Below, piece by piece: positions 18,976 to 45,144 of a stretch of 45,279 nt of DNA. Below the pieces are notes generated by a model, which saw nothing but the letters and a program-made list of their open reading frames with translations, ran no database searches and was not told the origin of the DNA. Source of the DNA: Thermoflexales bacterium (GTDB lineage Bacteria > Chloroflexota > Anaerolineae > J036 > Brachytrichaceae); the NCBI GenBank assembly GCA_019694215.1, contig JAIBCK010000019.1:1-45279 (forward strand), read 5' to 3'. Position numbers and translations under genes: made by a program. Each line of letters starts with the position of its first letter. Position 1 is the first letter of the stretch.

Positions 18976-21900
18976 TCAACGGTGGATCAGCGGCAGGAAG
19001 CGCGTCGGGTAAACGTTGGACTCCACATGCATCTTGATCGTGATCGTTTGCGGGCTGTACAACGCACCCATTGCAGTCACGGTGACCGTCCCGGTGTAGT
19101 CGCCGAGGGGCATGCCGAGCGCGGAGCCCGTCACGATCAGAAGCGATGGCGCTTCGCCGGACACGATGTTGGTCTTGATCCACGGATCGCTCGTCGCCAA
19201 CGTCCATGTCAGCACGCCCAGCCCCTGGTTGGTCACCCAGGTCGACTTGGGGTCGACGGCCGGGCTCCAGGCGTTGAAGACAAAACCCATCGAGCTAGAC
19301 CCCACGTTCAAGGCCGGCACGCTTGGTGGGAACTTCGAGCCGTCCAGCGGATCGGTGCCCAGCTCCAACTCGAGCGCGTCCGAGAACTCGTCGCCATCGG
19401 TGTCCGGGTTGCGCGGGTCCGTGCCGGCCGCCTGCTCCTCGAGGTTGATCAGGCCATCGCCATCCGGATCAGCCAGGGCATCGGCCGGATCGAGCGGGTT
19501 GAATCCGTGTGCCTGCTCCCAGCTGTTGGTCAAGCCATCCTTGTCGTAGTCGGCGATGACGGTGACGGAGACGACCCGCGTGCCCGTCATGATGCCGTCG
19601 CCCACCTGGAACGTGAGCGTGTGCACACCCACCGTTGTCAACGTCACCGATGCGACGTCGCTGTTGGCGATGAGCTTGCCGGCCTTGCGCCAGGAATACT
19701 GGAAGGTCGGCAGCGAATACCCGCCCTGCCCCATCCCCACGCCGATCAGCTGAAGCGGCATGCCTTCGCCTACGACGGCGCCATCCAACGGTGCCTCGAT
19801 GAGCGCCACCGGCGCTTTCTTCTGAAGCGTAAAGGCGGCAGACATGGCGCTGGCGGTATTGAAGCCATCACTCACACGCACGCGGATGCGGGCGGTGTTG
19901 CTCGCCGGGAGCCAGCCCGGGACAAAGCTTGCGCTGTTCTGCGTCACGTAGGGAAGTACCAGCTCCCAGGTCGCGCCGTTGTCGGCGGAGTAGTCGAGCC
20001 CGAACTGCAGCGGCCCACCGTCTGCATCCCCCGCCGCCCACGTCACGGTCATCGGCAGGTCGGGGTTGATCACCGATCCCGACAGTGCGACCGATCCGAT
20101 CGTGGGCGGGATGGACGTTGGGCTGGCCGACCACAGCGTGACGCCATCGTGATACAGGTCCACACCGGTCGCGCCAACCGGGAACGGCACGCGCAACGTG
20201 AAGGACCCATCGGCGCCCTCGTCGAGGTGGTTGTCACCCCGTGATTGCGCAAGGTCGGCCAGGTCATGGGCAATGAGCGCGGCTTCCGGCAGCGCAAAGG
20301 CCTGGTCATGTAGCACGCCATTTCCTGGGCCGAACACGCGCAGGTGGTAGGTTCCCCAGGGTTCCTGAGGCGTAACGGACCCTTCGTTGACTGCCACGAA
20401 GGACAGGCTGGGCGTAACGAGTCCGGTGGCACCGATCTTGCCCGCGAGCCGATACGTTCGCGTGACCGCGACAACTGGCAGCATCGGAGCGGCGGGCCGC
20501 GCCGGACCTGCTCGCTCGGGCGCACCGATCTGCGGCTTCCATCCGGCAGGCAGATAGGCGGGATCGTAGCCCGGACAGACATACAGCGGCAGCATCGGTT
20601 CCTGATAATCAACGCAGAGCTGGGCGAGCAAGTTCTTGTAGTCCTCCAGTTCGAGAACGGTGTTGAAGTTGCGCCGGGCCGGGGCGTAGGAAATCACCGA
20701 CTTGGCCGTGTCAGTCTGATTCGAACCCGAGGCAATCGCGCAAGACTGCGTCAGCAGGAGCTTGAAACCGGAGCCCGTCAGGCGCACCACCCGCGCACCC
20801 GGTTTCGCCTGGGCGTCAAGGGCGTCCTTGAACTCGCGCGTATTGTCGCAGTCGGATGTCCAGCTCAGACCATCTCCATCCCAGCGCCCCTCGTCATATT
20901 TGGAGTGATGGTCGCCGCCTTTGATCGGGACGTTTTCATAGTTGGCCGCACTGCCTGAGACAAAGCCAAAGGCGTGCATCAGCTCATGAGCCATGTAGCG
21001 CCCCGCGACATTCTTCCCAGCATCGATCGAGACGGTCTTCCACCCTGAGTTGCTCACCCCGCCCGCGCTAAGGCCGCCCGTAAGGTTGGCATCAAAAGCA
21101 GCTATCGCCCATGTCGATCCATCGGGATCGAGATACGCCTCGACCTCATCACGGGAATCGCCATCATTCTCGCTGATCGTGATCGAAAATGGCTTCGAGA
21201 ACCACACCGGCGTTTGCGTCGTCCACCAGGCCGAGCCCCAGGTCGTATGCGCGTCCTGTTGGGGATACATTCGACCCAGCGCTGCGAAACCCTCCATGAT
21301 GTTCTGATCATGGTTGCTGTCATTGGGCACGTCGCTGGCATAGATGTTCATCACGCGCACCTTGCGGCGGACGGCGCTCGTATCCACAAAGCGGAATACC
21401 GTGGCGGGGACGTTGAACTGCGTGAGCGTCACCGAGTTTCGTTTGAGCGTGATGCGGGCGCCCTGGAAGTCCTGCCATGGCGTGGGTGTGAGATCGAGCG
21501 CGTCATCGATGTCGACGTTTGCCACGACATTGATGAACGGGCTGATCCCGTCGCCGTTTGAGCTGCCAACGGCGGGCAGTGATTGGCCGGTTGCGTTATA
21601 GAACGACCCGCCGGCAAGCTTCTTGCTCCCGCTGAAGAGCCACTCGACAGTCGCGCTGGTCACGGCATCCTGGCAATCGCCAACTGAACGGGCGTCGATG
21701 GTCACCAGCGTCCGTTTGCCCCAGATCAGCGGTGCGCCGGTGATGGCCTGCTGCGCTCGTGTTCCCACCACAGAGAGCGTGGGCACGGAGAGCGCCATCG
21801 AGCTTGTCGCAACCTGCCCGCTCAGCAGGCGCACGACCACTGGGCCAGAAGTGTCACCCGGCCTGAGGAAGGTCCGAATCTGGGTCGGATCGGTCGCGTC

Positions 21901-24582
21901 CGCGATTCGCTCAGTGCCGCTCCCGACCTTGACATAGGCAGCGGCGCTGCCATCCTGGAAGCCTGCGCCGTCGATGGTGAGCAGGCCACCCACGCCAACA
22001 CACCCGGGCGATATGGCGCTGATAATCGGCTTAAGTTTGAACGGCTGTGCGCTCATGCCGGACTTGAGGCCGTTGGCCTCGGCCTGAAGCTGACCCGTTG
22101 ACGCGGACGCCGGGACCTTGACCGACATGGTCGTGTAGCCTACCGCCTGAATCTCTGCGAGCGGAGCGGGCTTGCCCGACGGGCCGTCCGCACAGCAGAA
22201 TCGCAAAACGTTGAATTCCGGTCCGCGGGTGTCGAATCCGGAGCCGGTAATGATGATGGTCTGGCCCGGCGAACCCGCGGCGGGCAGGAAGGTTGTGATG
22301 GTCGGGACCACGCTGCCGATCGGGCTGGTCACGATGCCGCGCGCAGCGATGGTGCCCGAAAACACGGTGCTGCCGCTGGACGACACCCAGGTGCGGGCGT
22401 TGTCAGCAGCGAGACCCGTGATGCGGTTGCTCTCAACCATCGTGCCGGGCGGGAAGAAGTGCTGCCAGCTGCTGCCCTGGCGGAGTGCGATGCCCTTTGT
22501 CGTGGCCGCCCAGACGCGTCCCTGGGGGTCAATTGAAACATGCGTGACGGTGCTTCCTGGCAGGGCTCCCGTGGCCGAGGTGTACGTCGTCCACGTAAGC
22601 GAAACCGGATCACGATATGACAGGCCCCCATTGCCGCCCACCCACAATCCGCCCGAGGGCTGCACGGCCAAGGCGTTGATTCGGTTCGATGGCAGGCCAT
22701 TTGTCGTGCTGTAGGTACTCCAGCCGCCACCCTGGGACACCAGGGAGTACGACTGCAAGCCAGCCAGCGTGCCGATCCACAGCCGATCACTGGCGTCCAC
22801 GGCCAGCGCGGTGATGGAATCGGAAATCAACGGTGATGTCTGAGTCGTATACGTCAGCCAGTAGCCGCCTTCCGCCCGCAGAGCGAGCCCGGCCGCCGTC
22901 CCCGCCCACATCCGACCATAGCTGTCGCGCACGAGTGCAGTGACATTGTCCGAGGGCAGGCCCGACGCTTGATCGAAGGCCACTGTGCTGGTCGGCGACC
23001 AGCCGACCACGCCATTGGCCGAGGTGCCCAGCCAGAGCAGACCGTCGGAGCCGCGCTGGATGGCCTGAATCGGACTGTTCACGCCGGAAACACTCGTCGT
23101 CACCCAGGTGTTCGAATCGATGTAGCCAAGTGCGGAACCAAGCGCCGCCCAGGTTCGGGTCACTTCGTTATACAGCACGCCGGGCTGCTGTGACGAAGCG
23201 GTGAAGGGGAAGCGCCGCCAGTTGGGCGAGTAGATCGAAAAGCCGGTCCTGTCAGTGTGGCCAAACCACACATCCTCGCCAGCGGCAAGGACCTGTGCGA
23301 CCTGATTGGTCTGCATCGGTGATGTGCCGGTGCCAAACATGCGCCAGGTGCCGTTGTCCCACACCGCGCCGCCGCCCGTGCCACCCTGGAAACTCAACCA
23401 GACACGGCCGGCAAAATCCTCACTGATGTCTGTGGCCTGATTCGAGGGCAGGCCCGGTGACAATGTCGAGTAGTAATCCACCGCATTGCTGAAAAGACCG
23501 ATAGAGTACATGCGACAGACCCCTGCCGCAACCCAGTACTCCGGCATGTCCGGGCTGATCCCGGGGACACTTTCCTCCTGAAGAAACCACAGATCGTGCT
23601 GCGACGTGGTCAGCATGCGCGTGGCGCGGCGCAGACCGCCGCCGCAGCTCGTATTTGCAGGGCTGAAGGTCGTGAAGGAGGAGGCCTGATCCCAGCGCGT
23701 GATCTCCAGCCCATTGCTGAAGTAGACGTAGGTGGTGACCAACGTCGTAAACTCCGCAATGTCGTAGATGTCACTGTTGGGCAGGCCATCCGCAGTATCG
23801 ATCACCTGCCACGTCCAGGGATGCGTGAGGGTGATCTTGACACCGCCCGCGGCCGTGGAGAGCCATATGTGATCAACACCGCTGGCCACAGCGATAGGCG
23901 TCAGCCGATGGATGTCATTGCTGGGTAGCGGCGAGTTGGCCACCGTGTAACGCGTCCAGGTGCCGGCGAACAGATCATAAATGCCAACGCCCAGGTTCGT
24001 CGCTACCCAGAGATCGCCGCCAAAAAGGGCCAGGTCGGTGATGCTGTTGCTGGGCAAGCCCGTCGTCGAGGACAGGATGCTCGTCCAGCCATACACGCCC
24101 AGGTTATTGGGTGCCCATACCCGCAAGCCACCGTTTTGCACGCCGACAAAGAGCCGGCCATCCGGCGCATATTCGATGGCGCTGATCGAAGTCGTGGAGG
24201 AGACGATGTTGTTGATCCGCCAGGTTCCCGTCAACGCCGGTTCTGCGCCAAGGGGCGCAAACCCAACCGGCGCCTGACGGGCGGGGAGAAGCTGCCGACC
24301 CAACTCCGTCCCGTAGCGCGTCGACCAGCCGGGCATGGCAAGATCGGCCACCAGCGCATCCGCCTCGGCGGGTTGCCTATCCAACGTTTCATCGACATCC
24401 GCGACATGGATGCCGTCTGCACCGTTGATCGGCGGCGAAACAGCCGACTGCGTGGTCGTCGGTGAACCCGCCGCATCACCCACCGACACGGGCGAAGCCG
24501 CGCCAACCGGACTCCATCCCATGAGATTCGACATCAGCGCCGCCGCAAGTCCAAGCGACATCAGCCGAGACGGTACTTTCAT
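18976..24582 (-). CDS. Very large secreted multidomain protein with Reg_prop propellers, IPT/TIG, HExxH and TSP3-type repeats
   Basis: About 1,868 residues. A signal peptide (KVPSRLMSLGLAAALMS...) leads into roughly 650 residues of two-component-regulator-type propeller repeats (LWVATNLGVGIYD, LWIGTLAGLQSY, VWAATTKGIALRQ). Two IPT/TIG-like Ig domains follow (ISPGCVGVGGLLTIDGAGF). Near residue 1200 is HELMHAFGF, a HExxH zinc-protease motif, then Ig/PKD-like domains. Acidic calcium-binding repeats lie near 1680-1750 (DKDGLTN, DPDGDGLINLEEQ, DTDGDEFSDALE), then a BACON-like C-terminal domain ending FLPLIHR. ATG 24582 is preferred over 24591 because a GGGGGGAA run ends 9 nt before it. Probably a surface or extracellular protein; whether it is an active protease is unclear. 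Confidence 0.8.
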   Translation of the reverse strand: MKVPSRLMSLGLAAALMSNLMGWSPVGAASPVSVGDAAGSPTTTQSAVSPPINGADGIHVADVDETLDRQPAEADALVADLAMPGWSTRYGTELGRQLLPARQAPVGFAPLGAEPALTGTWRINNIVSSTTSISAIEYAPDGRLFVGVQNGGLRVWAPNNLGVYGWTSILSSTTGLPSNSITDLALFGGDLWVATNLGVGIYDLFAGTWTRYTVANSPLPSNDIHRLTPIAVASGVDHIWLSTAAGGVKITLTHPWTWQVIDTADGLPNSDIYDIAEFTTLVTTYVYFSNGLEITRWDQASSFTTFSPANTSCGGGLRRATRMLTTSQHDLWFLQEESVPGISPDMPEYWVAAGVCRMYSIGLFSNAVDYYSTLSPGLPSNQATDISEDFAGRVWLSFQGGTGGGAVWDNGTWRMFGTGTSPMQTNQVAQVLAAGEDVWFGHTDRTGFSIYSPNWRRFPFTASSQQPGVLYNEVTRTWAALGSALGYIDSNTWVTTSVSGVNSPIQAIQRGSDGLLWLGTSANGVVGWSPTSTVAFDQASGLPSDNVTALVRDSYGRMWAGTAAGLALRAEGGYWLTYTTQTSPLISDSITALAVDASDRLWIGTLAGLQSYSLVSQGGGWSTYSTTNGLPSNRINALAVQPSGGLWVGGNGGLSYRDPVSLTWTTYTSATGALPGSTVTHVSIDPQGRVWAATTKGIALRQGSSWQHFFPPGTMVESNRITGLAADNARTWVSSSGSTVFSGTIAARGIVTSPIGSVVPTITTFLPAAGSPGQTIIITGSGFDTRGPEFNVLRFCCADGPSGKPAPLAEIQAVGYTTMSVKVPASASTGQLQAEANGLKSGMSAQPFKLKPIISAISPGCVGVGGLLTIDGAGFQDGSAAAYVKVGSGTERIADATDPTQIRTFLRPGDTSGPVVVRLLSGQVATSSMALSVPTLSVVGTRAQQAITGAPLIWGKRTLVTIDARSVGDCQDAVTSATVEWLFSGSKKLAGGSFYNATGQSLPAVGSSNGDGISPFINVVANVDIDDALDLTPTPWQDFQGARITLKRNSVTLTQFNVPATVFRFVDTSAVRRKVRVMNIYASDVPNDSNHDQNIMEGFAALGRMYPQQDAHTTWGSAWWTTQTPVWFSKPFSITISENDGDSRDEVEAYLDPDGSTWAIAAFDANLTGGLSAGGVSNSGWKTVSIDAGKNVAGRYMAHELMHAFGFVSGSAANYENVPIKGGDHHSKYDEGRWDGDGLSWTSDCDNTREFKDALDAQAKPGARVVRLTGSGFKLLLTQSCAIASGSNQTDTAKSVISYAPARRNFNTVLELEDYKNLLAQLCVDYQEPMLPLYVCPGYDPAYLPAGWKPQIGAPERAGPARPAAPMLPVVAVTRTYRLAGKIGATGLVTPSLSFVAVNEGSVTPQEPWGTYHLRVFGPGNGVLHDQAFALPEAALIAHDLADLAQSRGDNHLDEGADGSFTLRVPFPVGATGVDLYHDGVTLWSASPTSIPPTIGSVALSGSVINPDLPMTVTWAAGDADGGPLQFGLDYSADNGATWELVLPYVTQNSASFVPGWLPASNTARIRVRVSDGFNTASAMSAAFTLQKKAPVALIEAPLDGAVVGEGMPLQLIGVGMGQGGYSLPTFQYSWRKAGKLIANSDVASVTLTTVGVHTLTFQVGDGIMTGTRVVSVTVIADYDKDGLTNSWEQAHGFNPLDPADALADPDGDGLINLEEQAAGTDPRNPDTDGDEFSDALELELGTDPLDGSKFPPSVPALNVGSSSMGFVFNAWSPAVDPKSTWVTNQGLGVLTWTLATSDPWIKTNIVSGEAPSLLIVTGSALGMPLGDYTGTVTVTAMGALYSPQTITIKMHVESNVYPTRFLPLIHR

Positions 24583-24668
24583 TTCGCGCATTTCCCCCCG
24601 CTACAAGTTCGCGACGTCTTCCTCTGCCGCGTCGAAGGCGGGTTATAGCGCAAACCGGGGAAACCGGA

Positions 24669-24698
24669 CTCTCAGGGATCAGTCATGGTCTCTCAGGG
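24669..24698. repeat. Two 9-bp direct repeats 21 bp apart upstream of the large secreted gene
   Basis: CTCTCAGGG occurs at 24669-24677 and again at 24690-24698, exactly two helical turns apart, in the 110-bp gap before the large secreted gene; the second copy runs into the mobA stop codon. A minus-strand TATAAC (24642-24647) nearby may be its -10. A related TCTCAGGG also precedes the PocR-type gene (31901-31908). Confidence 0.35.
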
Positions 24699-25301
24699 TG
24701 CGAGCGGACCACCAAGTGCGCGCCGCGCGCGGATGTAGGCCTCGGGATCATCGACGGACTCGATCCAGCGCAGATGGGCCGGCACGAGGCGGTTGATCGG
24801 TCGCTGCGCCATGATGCGCTGCAGCGATCTCGCGCCGCCCGCGAAGGCCTCCGGCAGCACCGCCAAAAAGGCAGGCTCGTAGACCGTCACAAGCGGTTCG
24901 GGCCGGTCCGTCTCCGGGTTGATGAACGCGGTGGCCCACTGATTTGGGTCGCGCCCGGCAAGCAAAGCCGTGAGCGCGTCCGCGTCAAAGTGGGGCAGAT
25001 CACACGAGAGCAGCAGCAGGGCGCTTCCCGGGAATCGCGGTTGGAGGGTGAGCACTGCGCCAATGGGGCCATTCCCTGCGAACGCGGGTTCGTCCGCGAT
25101 GCAGTCCTCACATCCCTCGCCTTCGGGCAGTTGGTCGGCCCGCAGCGAGAGGAAGACGCGTTCGCAGACCGGCGCGAGCAGCGCACGGAGCCAGTCCCGC
25201 TGCGCAATGCCATGGTATTCCAGGAGGCCCTTGTCGCGGCCCATCCGACGGCTCTCGCCGCCTGCCAGCACAACGCCGATCAAGGGTGCTGCATGACTCA
25301 T
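24693..25301 (-). CDS. mobA: Molybdenum cofactor guanylyltransferase
   Basis: Transfers GMP from GTP to molybdopterin, forming the guanine dinucleotide cofactor (bis-MGD) used by DMSO-reductase-family enzymes. The 202 residues begin with the nucleotidyltransferase signature VVLAGGESRRMGRDKGLLEY; LLLSCDLPHFD supplies the metal-binding Asp, followed by FINPETDRPEPLVTVY. The start codon lies only 17 bp from the divergent CYTH-CHAD start. No molybdoenzyme is in the window, though a tungstate transporter is encoded about 9 kb away. Confidence 0.93.
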   Translation of the reverse strand: MSHAAPLIGVVLAGGESRRMGRDKGLLEYHGIAQRDWLRALLAPVCERVFLSLRADQLPEGEGCEDCIADEPAFAGNGPIGAVLTLQPRFPGSALLLLSCDLPHFDADALTALLAGRDPNQWATAFINPETDRPEPLVTVYEPAFLAVLPEAFAGGARSLQRIMAQRPINRLVPAHLRWIESVDDPEAYIRARRALGGPLAP

Positions 25302-25305
25302 GCTC

Positions 25306-25312
25306 TATAGTA
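25306..25312. promoter_or_regulatory. Overlapping divergent -10 elements between mobA and the CYTH-CHAD gene
   Basis: TATAGTA contains TATAGT for the plus strand (25306-25311, 7 nt before ATG 25319) and TACTAT for the minus strand (25307-25312, 5 nt before ATG 25301). The whole intergenic gap is 25302-25318. Both transcripts must therefore start at or beside their start codons unless the promoters lie inside the opposite genes. Confidence 0.6.
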
Positions 25313-25318
25313 TCGGAC

Positions 25319-26914
25319 ATGACGTCCAAACTGGAAGTGGAATGGCAATTTGAGGCTCCCGACCTGGACGTCGTCGAGCAGTGGGCGACGGAGCAGACCG
25401 CACGACATGGCGTGAAGGTCGATCCCGCCTCGCGCGTGATCGAGCATGACAGCTACTTCGACACGCAGGACTGGCGATTCTTTCGGGCGGGCTGCGCGCT
25501 CCGCGTGCGCCGCGCGGGGGATGTGTCCACCGCCACGCTCAAGACCTTTGGCCAGCGCCGCGACGGGGCGCATCAGCGCATCGAAATCAGCGAGCCCGTG
25601 GCGTTGCCGCGCCGGACCAGCGCGGCGGGGCTGATCAAAGCCCTCACGGCCCTGCCGGGGCCGGTCGGGGAGCGCATCCGGCTCGTGTGCCGCGACGTGG
25701 CCCTGACTGCGCTGTTCAGCGCGCGCGCCGAGCGCAGGCTGTCGGACGTGCGCCTCGACGGCAGCACCGTCGCCGAGCTGGCGCTCGACACCGTCGCCAT
25801 GACCGGTGGCGCAAAACGCTCCCCGCTCATCGTCAGCCGGGTCGAACTCGAGGCGCGCGGCGAGCCTTTGCCGATACTGCAGACGCTCGCGGACGCGCTC
25901 CGTGACGACCTGGGGCTCAGCCCGGCCGGCGAGTCCAAATACGAGCTCGGGCTGAAGCTGGCCGGGCTGCATCCCACCCTCGCGCCGTTTTGCGGGTCAC
26001 CGGCCTCGGCCGCCGAGTTGGCGGAGACCGAACGCAAGCCGTCGATTGGCGCGCTCGCCTATGCCGTCATGCGCGAGCGCTTTGCGCAGTTCTCGGCCAA
26101 CGAGCCCGGCACCCGCCTGGGGGACGATCCCGAGTTCGTGCATGACATGCGCACCGCCACACGCCGGCTGCGCGCTGCGATGGGATTGTTCGAGCCGTTC
26201 CTGCCCCACCGCGCCATCGCGCTGCGCGATGGCCTGCGTTGGTTCGCAACCCAACTCGGCGCGGTGCGGGACATCGACGTGCAGCTCGAACACTTGACGC
26301 ACGGACAGGATGGCATCGCACTGGTTGATGGCGCCGACGCGGTAATCGGCCTCCTGCGCGCACAACGTGAACAAGCAAGGCTAGCCCTGCTCAGGGCCAT
26401 CGATTCGCCCCGCTACACCCAGCTGCTGGCCGCCTTCGAAGAGATGCTCCGCGCCGGCCCGCGCCGCGCCGATGCCATTCATCGGCAGGCGGCGGATGCG
26501 ATGCCCGCCATGATCGAGGCCCGCTATCGCAAGGTGAACAAGGCCTTCGGCCGGCTCGGGCCGGACTCGCCGCCTCAGGACTACCACGCGCTGCGCATCT
26601 TGATCAAACGATTCCGTTATGCGCTCGAGTTCGCTGAACCCCTGTTTGGCAAGCCCATCAGCGACTACCTTCCGGTCGTCGTCGGCGCGCAGGAAACGCT
26701 CGGCGGATACCAGGATGCGGAAGTCGCCCTTGCCCACCTCCGTGCGCTCAGCCTCTCCCCCGAAGCCCTCTCGACACCGGCGACGCTGCTCGCCCTGAGC
26801 GAGATGTCTCGCCAGCGCATCCTGCAGGGCGAGGCGCTGCGCGCGCGGGCCCCGGAGGAGATCGGCGCGCTGACGGGCAAGGCCTGGCGTCGGTTGAAGA
26901 AAGGGATGCGATAG
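25319..26914 (+). CDS. CYTH and CHAD domain protein
   Basis: 531 residues combining an N-terminal CYTH triphosphate-tunnel domain (about 1-215) with a C-terminal CHAD helical domain (about 245-525). The CYTH start reads EVEWQ where the family has ExExK, so the conserved Lys is Gln, while later tunnel residues such as RVRRAGDVSTATLKTFG remain. CHAD shows the His/Arg-rich helix FVHDMRTATRRLRAAMGLFEP and LRILIKRFRYALEFAEPL, and binds polyphosphate in characterised relatives. Likely role: inorganic polyphosphate or triphosphate binding or turnover. ATG 25319 is chosen because a TATAGT ends 7 nt before it. Followed after 6 nt by the S51-like gene. Confidence 0.85.
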   Translation: MTSKLEVEWQFEAPDLDVVEQWATEQTARHGVKVDPASRVIEHDSYFDTQDWRFFRAGCALRVRRAGDVSTATLKTFGQRRDGAHQRIEISEPVALPRRTSAAGLIKALTALPGPVGERIRLVCRDVALTALFSARAERRLSDVRLDGSTVAELALDTVAMTGGAKRSPLIVSRVELEARGEPLPILQTLADALRDDLGLSPAGESKYELGLKLAGLHPTLAPFCGSPASAAELAETERKPSIGALAYAVMRERFAQFSANEPGTRLGDDPEFVHDMRTATRRLRAAMGLFEPFLPHRAIALRDGLRWFATQLGAVRDIDVQLEHLTHGQDGIALVDGADAVIGLLRAQREQARLALLRAIDSPRYTQLLAAFEEMLRAGPRRADAIHRQAADAMPAMIEARYRKVNKAFGRLGPDSPPQDYHALRILIKRFRYALEFAEPLFGKPISDYLPVVVGAQETLGGYQDAEVALAHLRALSLSPEALSTPATLLALSEMSRQRILQGEALRARAPEEIGALTGKAWRRLKKGMR

Positions 26915-28200: not shown

Positions 28201-28704
28201 CTAGATGAAGATGATCTGCGCGCCGTCGGTCATGTCCATGAAGTCGGAAGCGGTGACGATGTCCTGCACGCCGTCGACAAAGTCCTCTTTCTTGAGGCCC
28301 ATCATGTCGACGGACATCTTGCAGGCATACAGCTTGGCGCCGCCGTCCACGAGCATCTGCAGATACTCGCCGACGGGGGGCACTTCCAGCTTCTTCATCT
28401 TGTCCTTCATCAGGGCCGTGGCGAAGGCGGTCATGCCAGGGAGGCCACCCAGCATGTTCGGGATGCCGAGGTTGCCTGCCTTGATGCCCATCATCGACAG
28501 CTTCATGCTGGGATTGCCCACCGGCGCGATCTCCAGGTGATCCTGGCGCGTCTTGGTGATGAGGTCCATCCCCCAGAACGTGAAGAACAGCGTGACGTCG
28601 ATGCCGTTGCCCAGCGCCGCCCAGCCCATGACGAGCGCAGGATAGGCCATGTCGAGGGCGCCCTTCGAGCAGATGAACGCGACCTTGCGATTTTCGGTGG
28701 TCAT
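28201..28704 (-). CDS. DsrE2-type sulfur carrier protein
   Basis: 167 residues of the DsrE/DsrF family, DsrE2-like subgroup. Characteristic stretches are VAFICSKGALDMAYPALVMG, VTLFFTFWGMDLI and the conserved Cys in LYACKMSVDMMGL, which in relatives carries persulfide sulfur. ATG 28704 is preferred over the upstream frame because AAGGA lies just before it. Last gene of the five-gene operon, 45 nt after the TusE/DsrC gene, and probably its sulfur acceptor or donor. The sulfur-transfer role follows from the family and has not been shown for this protein. Confidence 0.82.
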   Translation of the reverse strand: MTTENRKVAFICSKGALDMAYPALVMGWAALGNGIDVTLFFTFWGMDLITKTRQDHLEIAPVGNPSMKLSMMGIKAGNLGIPNMLGGLPGMTAFATALMKDKMKKLEVPPVGEYLQMLVDGGAKLYACKMSVDMMGLKKEDFVDGVQDIVTASDFMDMTDGAQIIFI

Positions 28705-28749
28705 GATGTTTGTCCTTGTGCGCACCGCCGCGGGGCGGCGCGCAGCCGT

Positions 28750-29067
28750 CTAGACGCAGCCCTCCGGCTTGCCCAGCCCGGCGATGCGGGCGACCTTCTT
28801 GGCCGGCCCCTTCGGGAAGAGCGAGAACAAGTCCTTCGTGCTCAGGCCCGTGCCGGTCGTGATGCGCCGCAGCGTCGGCGACTTGCCAGCCGCACCGGCG
28901 TCCTGGCGGCTAAAAGTGATGATCTTCCAGTGCTGCTCGCTCAGCGCGGGGATGCCCTCTTCCTTCGCCAGCTCCGTGGCGATCTCCTGGGTCCACTCGG
29001 CCGGGTTCGTCATGAACCCTTCATCGTTGACCGTGACGGTCTTGCCTGCAATCGTTCGCGTAGCCAT
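28750..29067 (-). CDS. TusE/DsrC-family sulfur relay protein
   Basis: 105 residues of the DsrC/TusE family, which moves sulfur on a C-terminal swinging arm. Family parts visible: IAGKTVTVNDEGFMTNPAEW, EEGIPALSEQHWKII and the tail AGLGKPEGCV with the penultimate Cys104 (CysA). The second arm cysteine of true DsrC (CysB, ten residues between it and CysA) is Ala93 here, so it cannot form the DsrC trisulfide and is TusE-like. No tusBCD or dsrAB is nearby; instead it sits with DsrE2, DUF1641 and an SQR-like flavoprotein, so a sulfur shuttle in that system is more likely than tRNA thiolation. Confidence 0.88.
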   Translation of the reverse strand: MATRTIAGKTVTVNDEGFMTNPAEWTQEIATELAKEEGIPALSEQHWKIITFSRQDAGAAGKSPTLRRITTGTGLSTKDLFSLFPKGPAKKVARIAGLGKPEGCV

Positions 29068-29112
29068 GTGTTTTCTCCTTGCTTTTCTGCCGGCGCAAAT
29101 CGCGCCGATGTC

Positions 29113-29787
29113 CTACGGTTCCGGGGTCTTCCCGATGGTGCTCAGCGCGCGCAACGTCAGGGCCAGGCCCCGGCGCGTCTTCGGGTCGCTCATCTGCTTG
29201 AGCAGCGCGCGCACACCAATGTTGATGGGTGCTGCGGCCTCCTCCTCCACGGCATTGACCGTGCTGCGCAGGAAGGTCATGATTTCCGGCTGGGTCATGT
29301 CCTTGACCGTGCGCAGGATGAGCACGATGTTGTCTCCCAGGCGCTCCACTTCCTCGGCGCTGAAGGACGTGACGATGTTGTCGACGATGCGCAGGCCGCC
29401 CTTCGCAAACGCGACATAGCCCTTCTTGTCCAACGTATCAAACGTCGCTTCGGCGCGGTTGAAGACGTCCTTGCCAATCGGGCCGGCGATTTCCATCAAA
29501 CCCGCACCGCTGTCGAGCAGGTCCACGACCTTCTCGATGTTCGGCAGGTTGCGGGCCACCTTCTTCAACAGTCGGATCAGGTCCGGGAGATCAACGTACT
29601 CCTCGATTTCCTGGAGGTGCGCCGAGGCGCGCTCCATGACCGTCGCAGCGATCGGCACGACATCGCGGACCAGCTCGGCGCGATCGGCGCTCGCGCGGGC
29701 GCTGGCCTCGATGTACTCGGTCAGCCGGGCCACCTGCGCGGTCAGCGCATCGAGCTTGGCGTTTAGTTCGGCGAGAGTGGGTTCCAT
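29113..29787 (-). CDS. DUF1641 family protein
   Basis: 224 residues, mostly helical, starting with a coiled-coil-like segment (LAELNAKLDALTAQVARLTEY), then LPDLIRLLKKVARNLPNIEKVVDLLDSGAGLMEI and a C-terminal part of about 100 residues with SFSAEEVERLGDNIVLIL. I recognise DUF1641, which I recall next to NADH dehydrogenase- or SQR-like flavoproteins in other bacteria (for example yjlC-yjlD of Bacillus). Here too it is 8 nt from an SQR-like gene, so a membrane or regulatory partner of that flavoprotein is likely. ATG 29787 is set by AGGAGG just before it; a longer frame exists. Confidence 0.8.
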   Translation of the reverse strand: MEPTLAELNAKLDALTAQVARLTEYIEASARASADRAELVRDVVPIAATVMERASAHLQEIEEYVDLPDLIRLLKKVARNLPNIEKVVDLLDSGAGLMEIAGPIGKDVFNRAEATFDTLDKKGYVAFAKGGLRIVDNIVTSFSAEEVERLGDNIVLILRTVKDMTQPEIMTFLRSTVNAVEEEAAAPINIGVRALLKQMSDPKTRRGLALTLRALSTIGKTPEP

Positions 29788-29795
29788 GTCGCCTC

Positions 29796-31028
29796 CTAGC
29801 GCTTCCACTTCCCGGCCAGGCTCATGCGGGCGGGGAGCGGCAGTTCCTCACCCTTGAGCAACAGATTCCAGTACATCCAGCGGAACAGCAGTTTGCCCCA
29901 GTGGTTGGCCTCCGACTCTTCGAGCAGGGTGAAAGGTCCAACGCCCGGAAGCGGGTAGCGACCCGGAAGCGGCTCGGTGTCGTAGTTGAAGTCGATCAGC
30001 AGTCCCTTGCCAAATCCGGACTCGATGAAGCAGTTGGCATGCCCATCGAACAACGGCTTGAGCTCACCGCCTTCGACATAGCGGACGAAGTTCTCGCCGA
30101 AGGTGTCCACCGCGAAGTGTGCCACTGAGCCCGCCTTGGAGGCCGGCGCATTCGAGGCATCGCCCAGCGCAAAGATGTTCGGATACTTGTTGGAAAGGAA
30201 CGTATTCTTGTTGACCGGGACGAAGTTCAAATCATCGCCCAGGCCAGCCTCGCCGATGACAGGCGCACCCGTATTCAGTGGCACGCTCACGAGCAGGTCG
30301 TATTCGACCTCGCGCTCGTCATACGACACGATCTTGCGGGCATCCGGGTCCGCGCGCTCGATCATGAACTCGGGCTCGACCTTGATGCCCTTCTCCTCAA
30401 GCAGGCCGCCCAGCAGTTTCGAGGCGAGGGGTTTGGTGAAGGCGCCCGGCAACGGCGTGGCGTAGATCAGCTCCACCTTGTCGCGGATGCCACGCTCGTG
30501 GAAATACCAGTCGGCGAGCATCAGGAATTCGAGCGGCGCGACCGGACACTTGATCGGATTCTCAACGACATTGACCACCAGGCGCCCGCCCTTCCAGCCG
30601 CGGAACGTCTCGGCCAGCGCGAGCGCACCCTCGTAGTTGTAGAAGGTGTGGATGGTCTTGCCCCATGCGTCTTCGCTCAGCCCCGGTGTCTGCTCCGGAT
30701 GAATGTCGGCGCCAGTGGCCACGATCAGATAGTCATAGCGTAGGGTGCGCCCATCGCCGAGCTCAACCTTCTGCGCCTCGGGGTCGATGGCGTTGATCTT
30801 CGCCAGAATCAGCTCGGTCCCGGCCGGCATGAAATCACGCTTGGGCTTGATGACGTCCCGCTTCCCATACACGCCAAACGGAATGAACAGGAAACCGGGC
30901 TGGTAGTAGTGGGTGGGGTTCTGATCGACCAGCGTGATCGACCACTCGGCGGTGTCCAGCTGCTTGCGCAACCGGTTCGCCACCATCGTGCCGGCGGTGC
31001 CGGCACCCAGAATGAGCAACTTCTTCAT
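29796..31028 (-). CDS. Sulfide:quinone oxidoreductase-like FAD flavoprotein
   Basis: 410-residue FAD-dependent oxidoreductase. Dinucleotide motif KKLLILGAGTAGTMVANRL at the start, YDYLIVATGADIHP, a second nucleotide-region strand GRLVVNVV, and FALGDASNAPASKAG as the FAD-closing motif. Two cysteines, C161 (PIKCPVAPLEF) and C333 (HANCFIESG), sit where sulfide:quinone oxidoreductases hold their redox pair. The C-terminal part (LLFRWMYWNLLL) could bind membrane. It probably oxidises sulfide or a persulfide and passes electrons to quinone; a type II NADH dehydrogenase is the main alternative. Good purine-rich ribosome site (GGGAGAGAA) before ATG 31028, 22 nt after the regulator gene. Confidence 0.83.
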   Translation of the reverse strand: MKKLLILGAGTAGTMVANRLRKQLDTAEWSITLVDQNPTHYYQPGFLFIPFGVYGKRDVIKPKRDFMPAGTELILAKINAIDPEAQKVELGDGRTLRYDYLIVATGADIHPEQTPGLSEDAWGKTIHTFYNYEGALALAETFRGWKGGRLVVNVVENPIKCPVAPLEFLMLADWYFHERGIRDKVELIYATPLPGAFTKPLASKLLGGLLEEKGIKVEPEFMIERADPDARKIVSYDEREVEYDLLVSVPLNTGAPVIGEAGLGDDLNFVPVNKNTFLSNKYPNIFALGDASNAPASKAGSVAHFAVDTFGENFVRYVEGGELKPLFDGHANCFIESGFGKGLLIDFNYDTEPLPGRYPLPGVGPFTLLEESEANHWGKLLFRWMYWNLLLKGEELPLPARMSLAGKWKR

Positions 31029-31050
31029 GCGATTCTCTCCCTGTTGTATT

Positions 31051-31854
31051 TCAGAGTTGGGTTAACGAAGCAATCTGCCGCAGGCGTCGCGCGTGCGCAG
31101 CGCGCTCCTCGGCCAGGTGGGCAAAAATGTCAGCGACCCGTTGCGCGGCCCGCAGCGCCCGCTGCTGGGCGTTCGCCTCGAGGCGAAATACGGCGTCGGT
31201 CTTGCCCTCGACATACTGCGGTTCCAGTCCGAACAAGTCAGCGATGTCGGACAGTTTTTCCCGCTGGGGCGGCCAGGGCTCGGGGGCAATCCCGCCGACG
31301 ATGACCATGCCCTCCAGAGCGCTGCCGACGCGGATCAGACCGCGCGCGCACAGCAGGCCCATTTCATTCGGGTAGAAGCGCGGCTCGATCGACGGACTTG
31401 CGGCAAGTTGCCGCCAGACCACCGCGCACTTGTCCAACGCATCCTCATTGCGCATCAGCGCCAGGTGATAGCCACACGCGTTGCTGATCTCGGTCACGGG
31501 GCCGCCATTCATGTCCGTCGTGACGATGGTGACCCCCAGCGCGTCCGCAAAGCCATCCTGAATGTGCTGCGCGGCCGTCATCGGCAGCAGCTCGCGCAGC
31601 GACAGGGCCCTGCCGGATCCGACCGGTGGCACGGGCTGCGGTTGGGGCGCGTCCTCAGCGAGTGGATGCGGTGCATCCTCTCCCGCGACGGCACTGTGTG
31701 ACGTCAGCCACCGCGCAATCTCCGGCTGGCGGAAACGCCATTGTTTGCCCACCCGGATGGCAGGCAGTTGCCCGCTCTCGATCATCCGGTAAATCGTCGT
31801 GCGATCGACTTTCAGCAGGTCTTGAACATCCTGCGTCGTGATCAACTCTGACAT
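31051..31854 (-). CDS. Transcriptional regulator with excisionase-type HTH and PocR sensor domain
   Basis: 267 residues. An N-terminal winged HTH of the MerR/excisionase type (residues 3-52: TTQDVQDLLKVDRTTIYRMI, then VGKQWRFRQPEIARWL) is joined by a Pro-rich linker to a PocR-type sensory domain (about 90-195), with Cys127, Cys143 and Cys169. The final helix-rich part (about 225-265) may dimerise. PocR domains are known as small-molecule sensors. As first gene of the sulfur operon it probably regulates it and may sense a sulfur species or redox state through its cysteines, but that is inference. Palindromes in its upstream region are candidate operators. Confidence 0.82.
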   Translation of the reverse strand: MSELITTQDVQDLLKVDRTTIYRMIESGQLPAIRVGKQWRFRQPEIARWLTSHSAVAGEDAPHPLAEDAPQPQPVPPVGSGRALSLRELLPMTAAQHIQDGFADALGVTIVTTDMNGGPVTEISNACGYHLALMRNEDALDKCAVVWRQLAASPSIEPRFYPNEMGLLCARGLIRVGSALEGMVIVGGIAPEPWPPQREKLSDIADLFGLEPQYVEGKTDAVFRLEANAQQRALRAAQRVADIFAHLAEERAAHARRLRQIASLTQL

Positions 31855-32017
31855 GTCGCCTCAGGCCCGTTTGCAGGAGCCTATGGCGACCATATCGTAT
31901 TCTCAGGGACGGCGCAACCGCCCTTTGGCCAGCCAACTGTCTAGAATGCGGCAGAAATAACGGCCAGGCGCGATTTTGATGCATCTGATGCATCACGCGC
32001 ACCTCTCGCAGGGCGCG
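31855..32017. promoter_or_regulatory. Control region of the sulfur operon
   Basis: 163 bp without a gene. It holds a minus-strand TACGAT (31894-31899), a possible -10 about 39 nt before the regulator ATG; a TCTCAGGG (31901-31908); an inverted repeat TTGGC-CA-GCCAA (31925-31936); and a tandem pair TGATGCATC (31977-31985) and TGATGCATCA (31986-31995), the second copy a perfect 10-bp palindrome. The 3' end of the cupin gene lies on the far side. Operator function is inferred from position. Confidence 0.45.
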
Positions 32018-33638: not shown

Positions 33639-34385
33639 TCAGGCCAGCCGCTCGCCGATGACATAGGCGGCCGCGCGTGGGTCGGTGGGCGCATCAAAGA
33701 AATGGTCGGCCGCGGCCAGCTCCACGAGTTCGCCGTCCAGCATCAGCCCCACCCGGTCCGCGACGCGGCGCGCCTGCGCCAGGTTGTGCGTCACCCACAC
33801 GCAGGTCAGGCCACGCGCCCGTCGCTCGGCCAGCGTGGCCGCCTCGATCAGCCGCACGTTCGCAGGATCGAGATTGGCCGTTGGCTCATCAAGAAGCAGG
33901 ACATCCGGCTCGATCACGAGCGCGCGCGCCAGGGCGACGCGCTGGGCCTCACCGCCGGACAGCGTGTGCGCGGCATCCCCTGCCCGGGCGAGCAGCCCCA
34001 CCCGCTCGAGCGCGGCGTCGGCGCGCGCCAACGCATTGTCCAAGCCGCGCAGCCGCAGGCCGTAGGCGACGTTCTCGCGCGCGCTCTGCCGCAGCAAGGC
34101 CGGTCGCTGAAAGACCGTCGTCACGCGCCGGCGCGTCGGCAGATCCGAAGACGCGAGCGGATCGATCGGCCGGCCCTCGAAGTGCAGCACGCCTGAGCTG
34201 GGGGCCTCCAGGAAGTTGAGCAGGCGAAGCAGCGTGCTCTTGCCTGCCCCGCTCGGCCCGACCAGGGCCAGCGTTTCCCCTCGCCTGAGGTCAAAGGTGA
34301 CGCCGCTCACCGCGCAGCGCGCGCCGTAGCAGCGCGTGACCGACTCAAGCTGAAACAGGGCCGCCCCCATGCCGAAATCAGCCAT
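33639..34385 (-). CDS. tupC: Tungstate ABC transporter, ATP-binding subunit
   Basis: 248-residue ABC ATPase with Walker A GPSGAGKSTLLRLL, Q-loop VFQRPALL, signature LSGGEAQRVALARAL, Walker B VLLLDEPTANLD and H-loop VWVTHNL. It overlaps the permease gene by 8 nt and follows the binding protein TupA, so it energises tungstate uptake. No C-terminal molybdate-binding (TOBE) domain is present, in keeping with TupC rather than ModC. Confidence 0.88.
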   Translation of the reverse strand: MADFGMGAALFQLESVTRCYGARCAVSGVTFDLRRGETLALVGPSGAGKSTLLRLLNFLEAPSSGVLHFEGRPIDPLASSDLPTRRRVTTVFQRPALLRQSARENVAYGLRLRGLDNALARADAALERVGLLARAGDAAHTLSGGEAQRVALARALVIEPDVLLLDEPTANLDPANVRLIEAATLAERRARGLTCVWVTHNLAQARRVADRVGLMLDGELVELAAADHFFDAPTDPRAAAYVIGERLA

Positions 34386-35088
34386 GGGCGCTCACCGCCT
34401 GTAGGCGCGTCAGCAGCAGGTTGCCGACAAAGGCCAGGGTGAGCAGCACAAACCCCAGCGCCAGCGCCCGGTCGAAATTGCCCTGCCCCGTCTCGAGCAC
34501 GATCGCAGTGGTCAGCACGCGCGTCTGCCCGGCCACATTGCCACCGACCAGCATCACCGCGCCAACTTCGGAGATCAGCGCCGCGAAGCCCCCGACCAGC
34601 GCGACGACCACGCCCGTGCGCGCCTCGCGCAGGACGACCGCCGCCAGTTGCAAGCGCGTGGCGCCGAGCGCCAGCACCTGCTGTTTCAGGCCGGCATCAA
34701 CCCCCATCACCGCGGACATCGTCAACGTCGTCACCAGCGGCAGCGCGCGCAGCGCCTGCGCGACGATCATGGCCTCAACGGTGAACAGGCGCGGGATGAA
34801 CGGCAGTCCCAGCGAGCCGAGAATGCCCGAGCGTGAGATAAAGACATACACCAGCAGGCCCAGCACGACCGGTGGCACGCCCATCGCGGTGTAAAGCAGG
34901 GCGAGCGCCCAACGGGGCCGTTTGACCCTAAGCCCCAGCCACGCCCCGGCGGGGATGCCCAGCAGCGCCCCCAACCCAAGCGCCGTGAGCGAGACGCGCA
35001 GCGACGTGCCGATGATCCCCCATACCTGGGGATCAGCCGAAACAAGCAGGCGCAGCGCACCCAGAAGGCCTTTGAGCAGATCATCCAT
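34378..35088 (-). CDS. tupB: Tungstate ABC transporter, permease
   Basis: 236-residue inner-membrane permease with about five or six hydrophobic helices (LRVSLTALGLGALLGIPAGA, YTAMGVPPVVLGLLVYVF, ALGFVLLTLAFVGNLLL) and the cytoplasmic coupling loop near QVLALGATRLQLAAVVLREA. The product lies between TupA and TupC in gene order with a typical overlap to tupC. The 45-bp gap to tupA carries no strong terminator, so the three genes are one operon. Confidence 0.87.
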   Translation of the reverse strand: MDDLLKGLLGALRLLVSADPQVWGIIGTSLRVSLTALGLGALLGIPAGAWLGLRVKRPRWALALLYTAMGVPPVVLGLLVYVFISRSGILGSLGLPFIPRLFTVEAMIVAQALRALPLVTTLTMSAVMGVDAGLKQQVLALGATRLQLAAVVLREARTGVVVALVGGFAALISEVGAVMLVGGNVAGQTRVLTTAIVLETGQGNFDRALALGFVLLTLAFVGNLLLTRLQAVSAHG

Positions 35089-35133
35089 CAGACAGCAAGG
35101 GCCGATTATGCCTGTGCCGGGCTCGCGTCAACG

Positions 35134-36096
35134 TCAGGGATGCGCCTTGCGCCACGCCTCGCTGTCCGCGTAGAACAGCGGTTGGCCATACTGGCTCTGC
35201 CCAAAGGCGGCGATCTTCTCCTGCGTTTCGAGCGAGGTGATCCACGCCGAGAAGGCCTCGGCGTATTTCGCCTTCACCGAGGGATAGCGGGCCGGGTTGA
35301 CCTGGATCACGCCATACGGGTTGAGCAGCGCCTTGTCCTTGTTCTGCGCAATCGAGTCGCCGCCGACCAGGACCTTGAGGAACTTCAGCTTTGAGGCCTG
35401 CGCCAGCCAGGTGCCACGATCGGTCAGGGTATAGCCGCCGCGCTCGTTGGCGAAGGTCAGGGTCTGACCCATGCCTTGACCAATTGCGTTGTACCATGGG
35501 CCGGCCGCCTCGATACCGGCGGCCTTCCACAGCTCCAGCTCCTTGGTGTTCGTCCCGCTCTTGTCCCCGCGCGAGATGAATGGCGCGCCCGCCGCGGCGA
35601 TCTTCTTCAGCGCATCGGCGACGCTGGTCAGCCCGGCCACTTTGGCCGGGTCCTCGGCGGGACCGACCAGGATGAAGTCGTTGTACATCACGTCGCGTCG
35701 GTTGATGCCAAACCCCGCCGCGACAAAGGCATCCTCCTGCGCGCGGGCATGCACGAGCACGACATCGGCGTTCCCATCCTCGCCGAGCTTGAGGGCGGCA
35801 CCGGTCCCCACCGCAACGACCTTGACCTTGATGCCGTTCTTGGCCTCGAAGTCGGGAAGCAGCGCTGCCAGCAGGCCGGTATCGTTCGTGCTCGTCGTCG
35901 TCGAGAGGATCATCTCGTTGGGACCGGCCACGATCGATGTCGGCGTCGGGGCCGCCGAAACCGCCGGCTTTGTGGCGGGCGGGGCTGTGGGGGCCGGTGT
36001 CGCCGGCGGGGCTGCAGCGCAGCCGGCCAGCAGAACGAAGGTGGCCAGTGCCGCGAAAATCTGCGGACCGGTGGGAGATCGGTTTGAAATCGCCAT
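35134..36096 (-). CDS. tupA: Tungstate-binding lipoprotein
   Basis: 320-residue periplasmic-type binding protein. A short signal ends in the lipobox LLAGC with Cys26, followed by a Pro/Ala/Thr linker and the oxyanion-binding signature STTTSTNDTG (65-74), which marks TupA-type tungstate binders. Later come DVVLVHARAQEDAFVAAG, YNDFILVGPAEDPA and FISRGDKSGTNTKEL. A long frame runs upstream, but ATG 36096 gives the lipoprotein start and lies 7 nt after TAGAAT. Tungstate specificity over molybdate is a family inference. Confidence 0.9.
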   Translation of the reverse strand: MAISNRSPTGPQIFAALATFVLLAGCAAAPPATPAPTAPPATKPAVSAAPTPTSIVAGPNEMILSTTTSTNDTGLLAALLPDFEAKNGIKVKVVAVGTGAALKLGEDGNADVVLVHARAQEDAFVAAGFGINRRDVMYNDFILVGPAEDPAKVAGLTSVADALKKIAAAGAPFISRGDKSGTNTKELELWKAAGIEAAGPWYNAIGQGMGQTLTFANERGGYTLTDRGTWLAQASKLKFLKVLVGGDSIAQNKDKALLNPYGVIQVNPARYPSVKAKYAEAFSAWITSLETQEKIAAFGQSQYGQPLFYADSEAWRKAHP

Positions 36097-36103
36097 GCTC
36101 TTG

Positions 36104-36109
36104 ATTCTA
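36104..36109 (-). promoter_or_regulatory. -10 hexamer for the tup operon
   Basis: TAGAAT on the minus strand, 7 nt from ATG 36096, with no Shine-Dalgarno between. It implies a leaderless tupA mRNA. Confidence 0.5.
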
Positions 36110-36153
36110 CGCGCTAGTACAAGATTTCGGGCCGCCCCGGGCGCGCCGCATGC

Positions 36154-36159
36154 TATACT
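36154..36159 (+). promoter_or_regulatory. Extended -10 promoter of the trp operon
   Basis: TATACT preceded by TGC, giving an extended -10 form, about 7 nt before the inferred transcript start near 36166. It directly precedes the T-box leader and is the only good candidate in the gap. Confidence 0.6.
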
Positions 36160-36165
36160 CGTTTT

Positions 36166-36444
36166 CACAGGCGAGGACCCAGACAAGTAGTTGTCGTGAC
36201 GGGAATCCGCCGTTTGCTTGGCAGAGAGTCCGGCCCCGCGGTGAAAGCCGGATCGAGCAATCGGCAACGAATGGACTGGTCAGCCGCAACCCGAACGCCG
36301 CAAGGCCGGTAGGCGCGCCGGAGCCGCGACCGTTATCGCGCGGAGCGCATGATCGTGCGCGAAAGAGGAGCGCCGCAAGGCGTTCGAATCAGGGTGGTAC
36401 CACGAGCAACGCCTCTCGTCCCGATGCGGACCGAGGCGTTTTTT
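36166..36444 (+). ncRNA. T-box riboswitch (tRNA-Trp) of the trp operon
   Basis: Long leader with classical T-box parts. Stem I base pairs GACC (near 36175) with GGTC (near 36278), and its apical region shows AGAGAG (36223-36228) and GGTGAAAGCCGG (36240-36251). The specifier loop reads GAATGGACT, with TGG at 36272-36274 followed by A, so the codon is Trp. The T-box AGGGTGGTACCACG lies at 36391-36404, just before a terminator. Uncharged tRNA-Trp would stabilise the antiterminator and switch on trpEGD. Start of the RNA is inferred from the -10. Confidence 0.92.
36408..36444 (+). terminator. T-box controlled terminator before trpE
   Basis: AACGCCTC (36408-36415) pairs with GAGGCGTT (36433-36440), followed by TTTT. 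The 5' arm lies right after the T-box sequence with which it competes, so this is the regulated terminator of the leader. Confidence 0.9.
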
Positions 36445-41563: not shown

Positions 41564-41618
41564 GGGTGTGACGTTCAAGTGTAGCGCATGTGCCCGCTAC
41601 TGCACACGATGACTAAGA

Positions 41619-41647
41619 CCGACGGCGGTCGCCCCACCCGCCGTCGG
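41619..41647 (-). terminator. Hairpin after ileS, possible terminator
   Basis: A perfect 10-bp GC-rich stem (41619-41628 with 41638-41647) around a 9-nt loop, 12 nt past the ileS stop. On the minus strand it is followed only by TCTTAGTC, a weak U-tract, so termination may be partial. Confidence 0.5.
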
Positions 41648-41659
41648 CCAGCGCTCGCG

Positions 41660-45058
<3,399 letters not shown>

Positions 45059-45144
45059 GGATGAAAAATGGCTCTTGACCCCACCAGTTGAGGGGCCGCG
45101 CAATGTTACTATGACCGGCAGACGTTGCCATCAATCTACCGCTG

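Follow-up and report, generated by a model that had tools for sequence, protein, structure and literature searches.

A type III sulfide:quinone oxidoreductase cassette with DUF1641, TusE and DsrE2 in a Thermoflexales bacterium: a probable menaquinone-linked sulfide dehydrogenase with its own sulfur carriers

Introduction

Type III sulfide:quinone oxidoreductases (SQRs) have been called the least known SQRs, and the closest described system to the one reported here is the operon MFUM_v2_0219-21 of Methylacidiphilum fumariolicum SolV, which encodes a type III SQR, a TusA homologue and DsrE2 and is up about 1.7-fold in sulfide-adapted cells (PMC10205796). In this work we analyzed a five-gene operon on the minus strand of a 45,279-nucleotide stretch from a Thermoflexales bacterium (Chloroflexota; assembly GCA_019694215.1, contig JAIBCK010000019.1, positions 1 to 45,279), the whole of which is called the window below, where a gene for a PocR-domain regulator is followed by those for a type III SQR, a DUF1641 protein and the sulfur carriers TusE and DsrE2. 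In both operons a small sulfur carrier and DsrE2 come after a type III SQR, but the carrier is TusA in Methylacidiphilum and TusE here, and the three genes are reported there without DUF1641 or PocR. The onward transfer of SQR products within bacterial cells is for the most part unsettled.

A DUF1641 subunit is known from ForCE of Bacillus subtilis, where its gene (forE) likewise adjoins that of a membrane-peripheral quinone-reducing dehydrogenase, although the partner on the ForC side is a Mo/W formate dehydrogenase and not a flavoprotein; formate:menadione activity depends on ForE1, which most likely binds menaquinone-7 (PMC8808070). DUF1641 also opens a hydrogenase operon of Parageobacillus (PMC12976888), it was raised together with a neighbouring FAD oxidoreductase in Ignicoccus (PMC3149612), and in Sulfobacillus an SQR and the DUF1641 gene with the next locus tag were both raised (PMC7409299). 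A more distant comparison is offered by the NADH dehydrogenase NDH-2 (YjlD) with YjlC (PDB 9pxk, 9snk), whose coupling protein is weakly similar in profile to the cassette DUF1641 and whose flavoprotein belongs to a family with the same fold as SQR but oxidises NADH. Each protein family of the cassette, and also the set SQR–TusA–DsrE2, is already known. A description of the set SQR–DUF1641–TusE–DsrE2, of an exchange between TusA and TusE or of the operator was not found in the open-access papers searched.

Results and Discussion

The operon probably encodes a two-subunit menaquinone-linked sulfide dehydrogenase together with dedicated proteins that carry off the sulfur product. It consists of five co-directional open reading frames (ORFs) with short gaps at 28201-31854, preceded by a candidate operator:

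31977..31995, minus strand: candidate operator made up of two 9-bp direct repeats in tandem, lying about 120 bp upstream of the start of PocR
31051..31854, minus strand: regulator gene, HTH_17 plus PocR (PF12728 59.3 bits, PF10114 60.8 bits; TIGR01764 46.5 bits, cut-off 28.8)
29796..31028, minus strand: type III SQR gene with catalytic C161 and C333 (NF049943 624.9 bits, cut-off 525; Pyr_redox_2 71.0 bits)
29113..29787, minus strand: DUF1641 gene, likely start ATG 29787 (ORF opens at GTG 29808)
28750..29067, minus strand: TusE-type carrier gene (PF04358, DsrC, 108.5 bits; penultimate Cys104)
28201..28704, minus strand: DsrE2-family carrier gene, likely start ATG 28704 (PF13686, DrsE_2, 123.3 bits; ORF opens at GTG 28725)

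All five genes that a sequence-only reading had described on one strand with short gaps were found again at their coordinates, with matching families, although the family match of DUF1641 is weak in the window protein itself. For DUF1641 and DsrE2 the ATG codons, which are preceded by the Shine-Dalgarno sequences AGGAGG and AAGGA, respectively, are most likely the true starts rather than the upstream GTGs, and with the start of DUF1641 moved to ATG 29787 its gap to SQR is 8 bp.

To take the linkage beyond the window, 80 named loci were gathered with an SQR profile, and the 64 with at least 2.4 kb of downstream sequence were used for the counts. TusE and DsrE2 genes lie behind SQR in every one of the 64 and the exact order SQR–DUF1641–TusE–DsrE2 is kept in 60, a linkage far beyond chance. 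The sequence-only reading, which took the genes for one unit and named as its counter-case that they are not linked elsewhere, is borne out in this respect. The loci span at least six phyla (Chloroflexota, Actinomycetota, Bacteroidota, Calditrichota, Ignavibacteriota and Fidelibacterota), loci from Verrucomicrobiota and Caldifarciminota are likewise present and some have no assigned phylum; as many of them are metagenome bins, single phylum placements may be wrong. Named strains with the cassette are Anaerolinea thermolimosa IMO-1, Thermanaerothrix daxensis GNS-1, Kineosporia sp. A_224 and Draconibacterium sediminis JN14CK-3. Across 301 sampled Chloroflexota genomes, a DsrC/TusE gene is present in 16/16 genomes with a close SQR vs 7/285 others (p 1.7e-21). 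Genes for YeeE/YedE-type sulfur transporters were seen near four cassettes (L050, L069, L088, L089), which is too rare for YeeE/YedE to count as a member.

The flavoprotein is an SQR rather than an NADH dehydrogenase. It scores above the curated cut-off for type III SQRs, and C161 and C333, its sole conserved cysteines, are located where the sequence-only reading had put them, are invariant in 110/110 sequences and align with both conserved cysteines of human SQR. An AlphaFold model (predicted local distance difference test, pLDDT, 87.0; predicted template modelling score, pTM, 0.88) was compared with the PDB, and the top 19 matches were all SQRs with template modelling (TM) scores of 0.77–0.87 (human SQR, the best match, 0.84–0.87; other SQRs 0.77–0.80), whereas NDH-2 reached about 0.71. 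The invariant cysteines and the closer structural match to SQR rule out NDH-2, the identity against which the sequence-only reading had asked for its sulfide-oxidising flavoprotein to be checked (homologues lacking the cysteines and grouping with NADH dehydrogenases), and the persulfide chemistry it had placed at C161/C333 is accordingly to be expected from family score, cysteines and model. The family also includes a selenoprotein subtype with selenocysteine in an HxxU motif (PMC13188914). The window SQR belongs to the same family by its score on the curated model NF049943, but has HANC at this site, with C333 where that subtype has selenocysteine, and all 110 sequences carry a cysteine there. 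Two relatives (G247, G079) were considered as selenocysteine candidates and rejected, the in-frame TGA being a normal stop or a stop upstream of the start.

Both carriers named by the sequence-only reading were confirmed at family level. TusE scores above the cut-off of the TusE/DsrC/DsvC family (TIGR03342, 77.2 vs 53.5 bits) and its penultimate Cys104 is conserved in 91/91 sequences. Position 93, the CysB position, where DsrC structures have a cysteine, is alanine, serine or threonine in all 91, which rules out a two-cysteine dissimilatory DsrC. DsrE2 falls below its equivalog cut-off (NF047629, 122.7 vs 210 bits) and is a member of the wider family PF13686; it has a single conserved cysteine, C135 (numbered from GTG 28725), present in 88/97 sequences.

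E. coli TusE is the partner of MnmA, and a single-cysteine carrier is of the TusE and not of the DsrC form. Together with the cassette TusE being the only DsrC/TusE protein of the host genome, this gives some support to a biosynthetic relay, in which persulfide from SQR would pass via DsrE2 and TusE to MnmA for 2-thiouridine in tRNA instead of serving sulfide disposal. We consider this improbable: the E. coli-type TusE equivalog model fails (NF008562, 57.5 vs 191 bits), the genome has neither TusA, the donor to TusBCD in E. coli, nor TusC/TusD homologues, TusE is missing from most of the phylum's genomes, so that tRNA thiolation there is independent of it, and SQR adjoins the carriers in all 64 loci.

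These absences come from genome-wide tests, run family by family on the host genome, which is 96% complete. No TusA domain was found and no NIR_SIR (sulfite reductase) domain, hence no DsrAB; nor was there a second DsrC/TusE, a DsrE or DsrE2 beyond that of the cassette, or a homologue of TusC/TusD (TusCD/DsrEF). The earlier statement that no dsrAB or tusA lies adjacent is therefore true in a stronger form, as both are missing from the whole genome. The related statement that this is not a standard Dsr or sHdr pathway holds for Dsr; for sHdr, for which only CCG domains were searched, it was too firm. In other organisms sHdr pathways make use of DsrE-type carriers, and two host genes, with open frames 472 and 678 aa long, have paired CCG domains. 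Both points are in line with the cassette being the front end of an sHdr-like pathway, the remaining genes of which would be located elsewhere; TusE and DsrE2 would then supply a heterodisulfide-reductase-like complex with sulfane sulfur. The chances of this appear very slim, since the genome lacks TusA, the carrier usually linked to sHdr, the two frames seem unlike short sHdrB proteins and the neighbour clusters most often found around the cassettes included no hdr-like gene.

SQRs in general are able to pass sulfur to small acceptors, and rhodanese domains occur elsewhere in the host genome (10 matches). Both points speak for a stand-alone SQR in detoxification, which would release polysulfide directly, with TusE and DsrE2 merely buffering reactive sulfur for cysteine protection or signalling, and the type III SQR of Methylacidiphilum was indeed proposed to yield elemental sulfur (PMC10205796). 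However, TusE and DsrE2 accompany SQR in 64/64 cassettes, more tightly than DUF1641 does, which suggests a part in turnover and makes a mere buffer unlikely.

A dehydrogenase with dedicated carriers also fits the evolutionary picture of the SQRs. Distant SQRs of the same phylum (below about 41% identity) adjoin TusA and DsrE2 and not TusE, and TusA is present in 39/41 genomes with distant SQRs vs 5/16 cassette genomes. On a tree of 96 SQR sequences the carrier switches once between TusA and TusE; the tree stems from a quick search, has two long branches, and the sequences on its two sides come in part from different sources. From the single change and the TusA beside distant SQRs it follows that either TusE took the position of TusA or the separation of the two sets is an old one. 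A remote SQR (34% identity; L127, G170) on a long tree branch has a TusE gene 2.2 kb off, not in cassette order.

The second subunit would be DUF1641. The window protein is a borderline match to PF07849 (19.0 bits with a cut-off of 21; 21.6 bits in the genome search), and 48/54 aligned cassette DUF1641 proteins, the window protein included, match this family. A profile of the 54 proteins matches ForE1 (PDB 8rqz) with E=6.6e-9 over 125 positions and, with E 4e-4 to 8e-4, YjlC and an "NDH-2 membrane coupling protein" (9snk, 9pxk; 9pxk_E E=7.6e-4). The DUF1641 model is all-helical and extended (pLDDT 86.8, pTM 0.40). Among 30 DUF1641 loci examined in a sample of the phylum, 29 adjoin a cassette SQR (10), another SQR (8) or the hydrogenase genes HypA/HypB (11). 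In view of its relationship to ForE1 and, more weakly, to the NDH-2 coupling protein, DUF1641 most likely serves to couple SQR to menaquinone in the membrane. The earlier proposal that DUF1641 tethers the complex was thus partly right, in the sense of a membrane or menaquinone coupling of SQR, which explains these profile matches and the SQR and hydrogenase neighbours better than a tether of the sulfur carriers does. In six loci (L190, L197, L200, L216-L218) DUF1641 adjoins human-type SQR genes, an SQR type different from that of the cassette, which supports a general partner of SQRs. Its position beside HypA/HypB in eleven others (L191-L196, L201, L203, L205, L206, L208) suggests a subunit of a quinone-linked hydrogenase.

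The regulator combines an N-terminal BldC/excisionase-like helix-turn-helix (HTH_17) with a C-terminal PocR sensory domain, and among solved structures no relative of this regulator was found. PocR lies upstream of SQR in 26/67 loci, confined to Chloroflexota, Actinomycetota and one unassigned locus, and elsewhere ArsR, Cys-rich MerR or divergent Crp/Fnr genes stand in its place. The sequence-only reading had regarded PocR as a dedicated part of the set, a claim that has to be withdrawn in favour of a lineage-specific regulator. Directly upstream of SQR in five loci (L059, L072, L077, L089, L107) are the Cys-rich MerR-family regulators, possibly Fe-S or persulfide sensors.

BldC of Streptomyces binds with each subunit a 9-bp unit of a direct repeat (PMC5859096). 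The window regulator has a related helix-turn-helix and the repeats at 31977-31995 show the same 9-bp period; on the minus strand they read TGATGCATCAGATGCATCA, an exact match to TGCATCANATGCATCA. In contrast, BldC has no sensory domain, its repeat sequence is different, and the helix-turn-helix of the window stays below the BldC subfamily cut-off (24.1 vs 77 bits). With at most 2 of 15 mismatches the repeat occurs in 12/32 promoter windows of PocR loci vs 1 match in 371 kb elsewhere in those loci; as L004/L045 and L005/L043 are duplicate genomes, this amounts to 11/30 independent cases. A shuffled window is expected to contain 0.04 matches to the 19-mer when up to 3 mismatches are allowed. 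The tandem repeats are therefore likely a BldC-type operator, although this assignment remains that of a candidate.

From these data the following mechanism can be drawn up for the proposed sulfide dehydrogenase. SQR would bind H2S, send two electrons through FAD and hold the sulfane sulfur between C161 and C333. DUF1641 would dock SQR at the membrane and aid its access to menaquinone, as ForE may do for formate dehydrogenase. The persulfide sulfur would leave SQR as protein persulfide on C135 of DsrE2 and on C104 of the C-terminal arm of TusE, so that DsrE2 and TusE would fill the place held by TusA and DsrE2 beside distant SQRs. As no DsrAB and no sulfite-level pathway was found, an end product at the level of S0, polysulfide or thiol-bound sulfur is likely, and the sulfur probably exits as S0 or polysulfide or goes to rhodaneses or other thiol acceptors. 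The role of the cassette would be sulfide disposal with energy gain, and the PocR protein may control the operon via the tandem repeats upstream of its own gene. Of this picture the sequences themselves establish the genes present and their linkage, the catalytic residues, the swap of carriers, the repeat motif and the lack of the other relay genes; sulfide as the substrate, the coupling to quinone, the transfer of sulfur with its direction and the contact between regulator and operator are inferred. A further-reaching version, for which the chances seem less than even, would have SQR and DUF1641 form a stable menaquinone-reducing sulfide dehydrogenase that requires protein acceptors (DsrE2 and a repurposed TusE) and not small thiols, with DUF1641 as a general membrane and quinone adaptor of SQR, NDH-2, formate dehydrogenase and hydrogenase.

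Several observations weigh against the proposed dehydrogenase with its own carriers and operator. DUF1641 alone is missing from 4/64 cassettes and was not found in the basal loci L016/L017, and therefore SQR can work without it. The matches of its profile to the NDH-2 coupling proteins are weak, and a Foldseek search of its model against the PDB gave no fold match; the link to ForE therefore rests on sequence profiles. TusA is still present in the 5/16 cassette genomes mentioned, and therefore TusE is no simple substitute for a lost TusA. Finally, the repeat is clear in only 12 of the 32 PocR loci, and its consensus was derived from the same loci in which it was counted.

The window also contains other genes. 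At 33639-36267 (minus strand) there are ABC transporter genes for a PBP_like_2 binding protein (tungstate type by eye), a permease and an ATPase, and a MobA-like gene lies at 24693-25301. A CYTH-CHAD fusion protein, a polyphosphate-related domain pair, is encoded at 25286-26914 (plus strand), and a protein of 1871 aa with two-component-regulator propeller, TIG and TSP3 repeats at 18976-24591 (minus strand). Two large ORFs of 477 and 679 aa at 41588-45064 (plus strand) have no Pfam match at E 1e-5.

Conclusion

In summary, across at least six phyla the cassette joins a type III SQR with defined protein carriers, and TusA and TusE, which are unrelated in structure, are exchanged within the same gene context. 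This points to a function of TusE beyond the Dsr pathway and the thiolation of tRNA. With the 9-bp repeats a ready assay is at hand for a sulfur-linked regulator with a PocR domain, and DUF1641, a domain of unknown function, becomes testable as a general quinone-coupling subunit.

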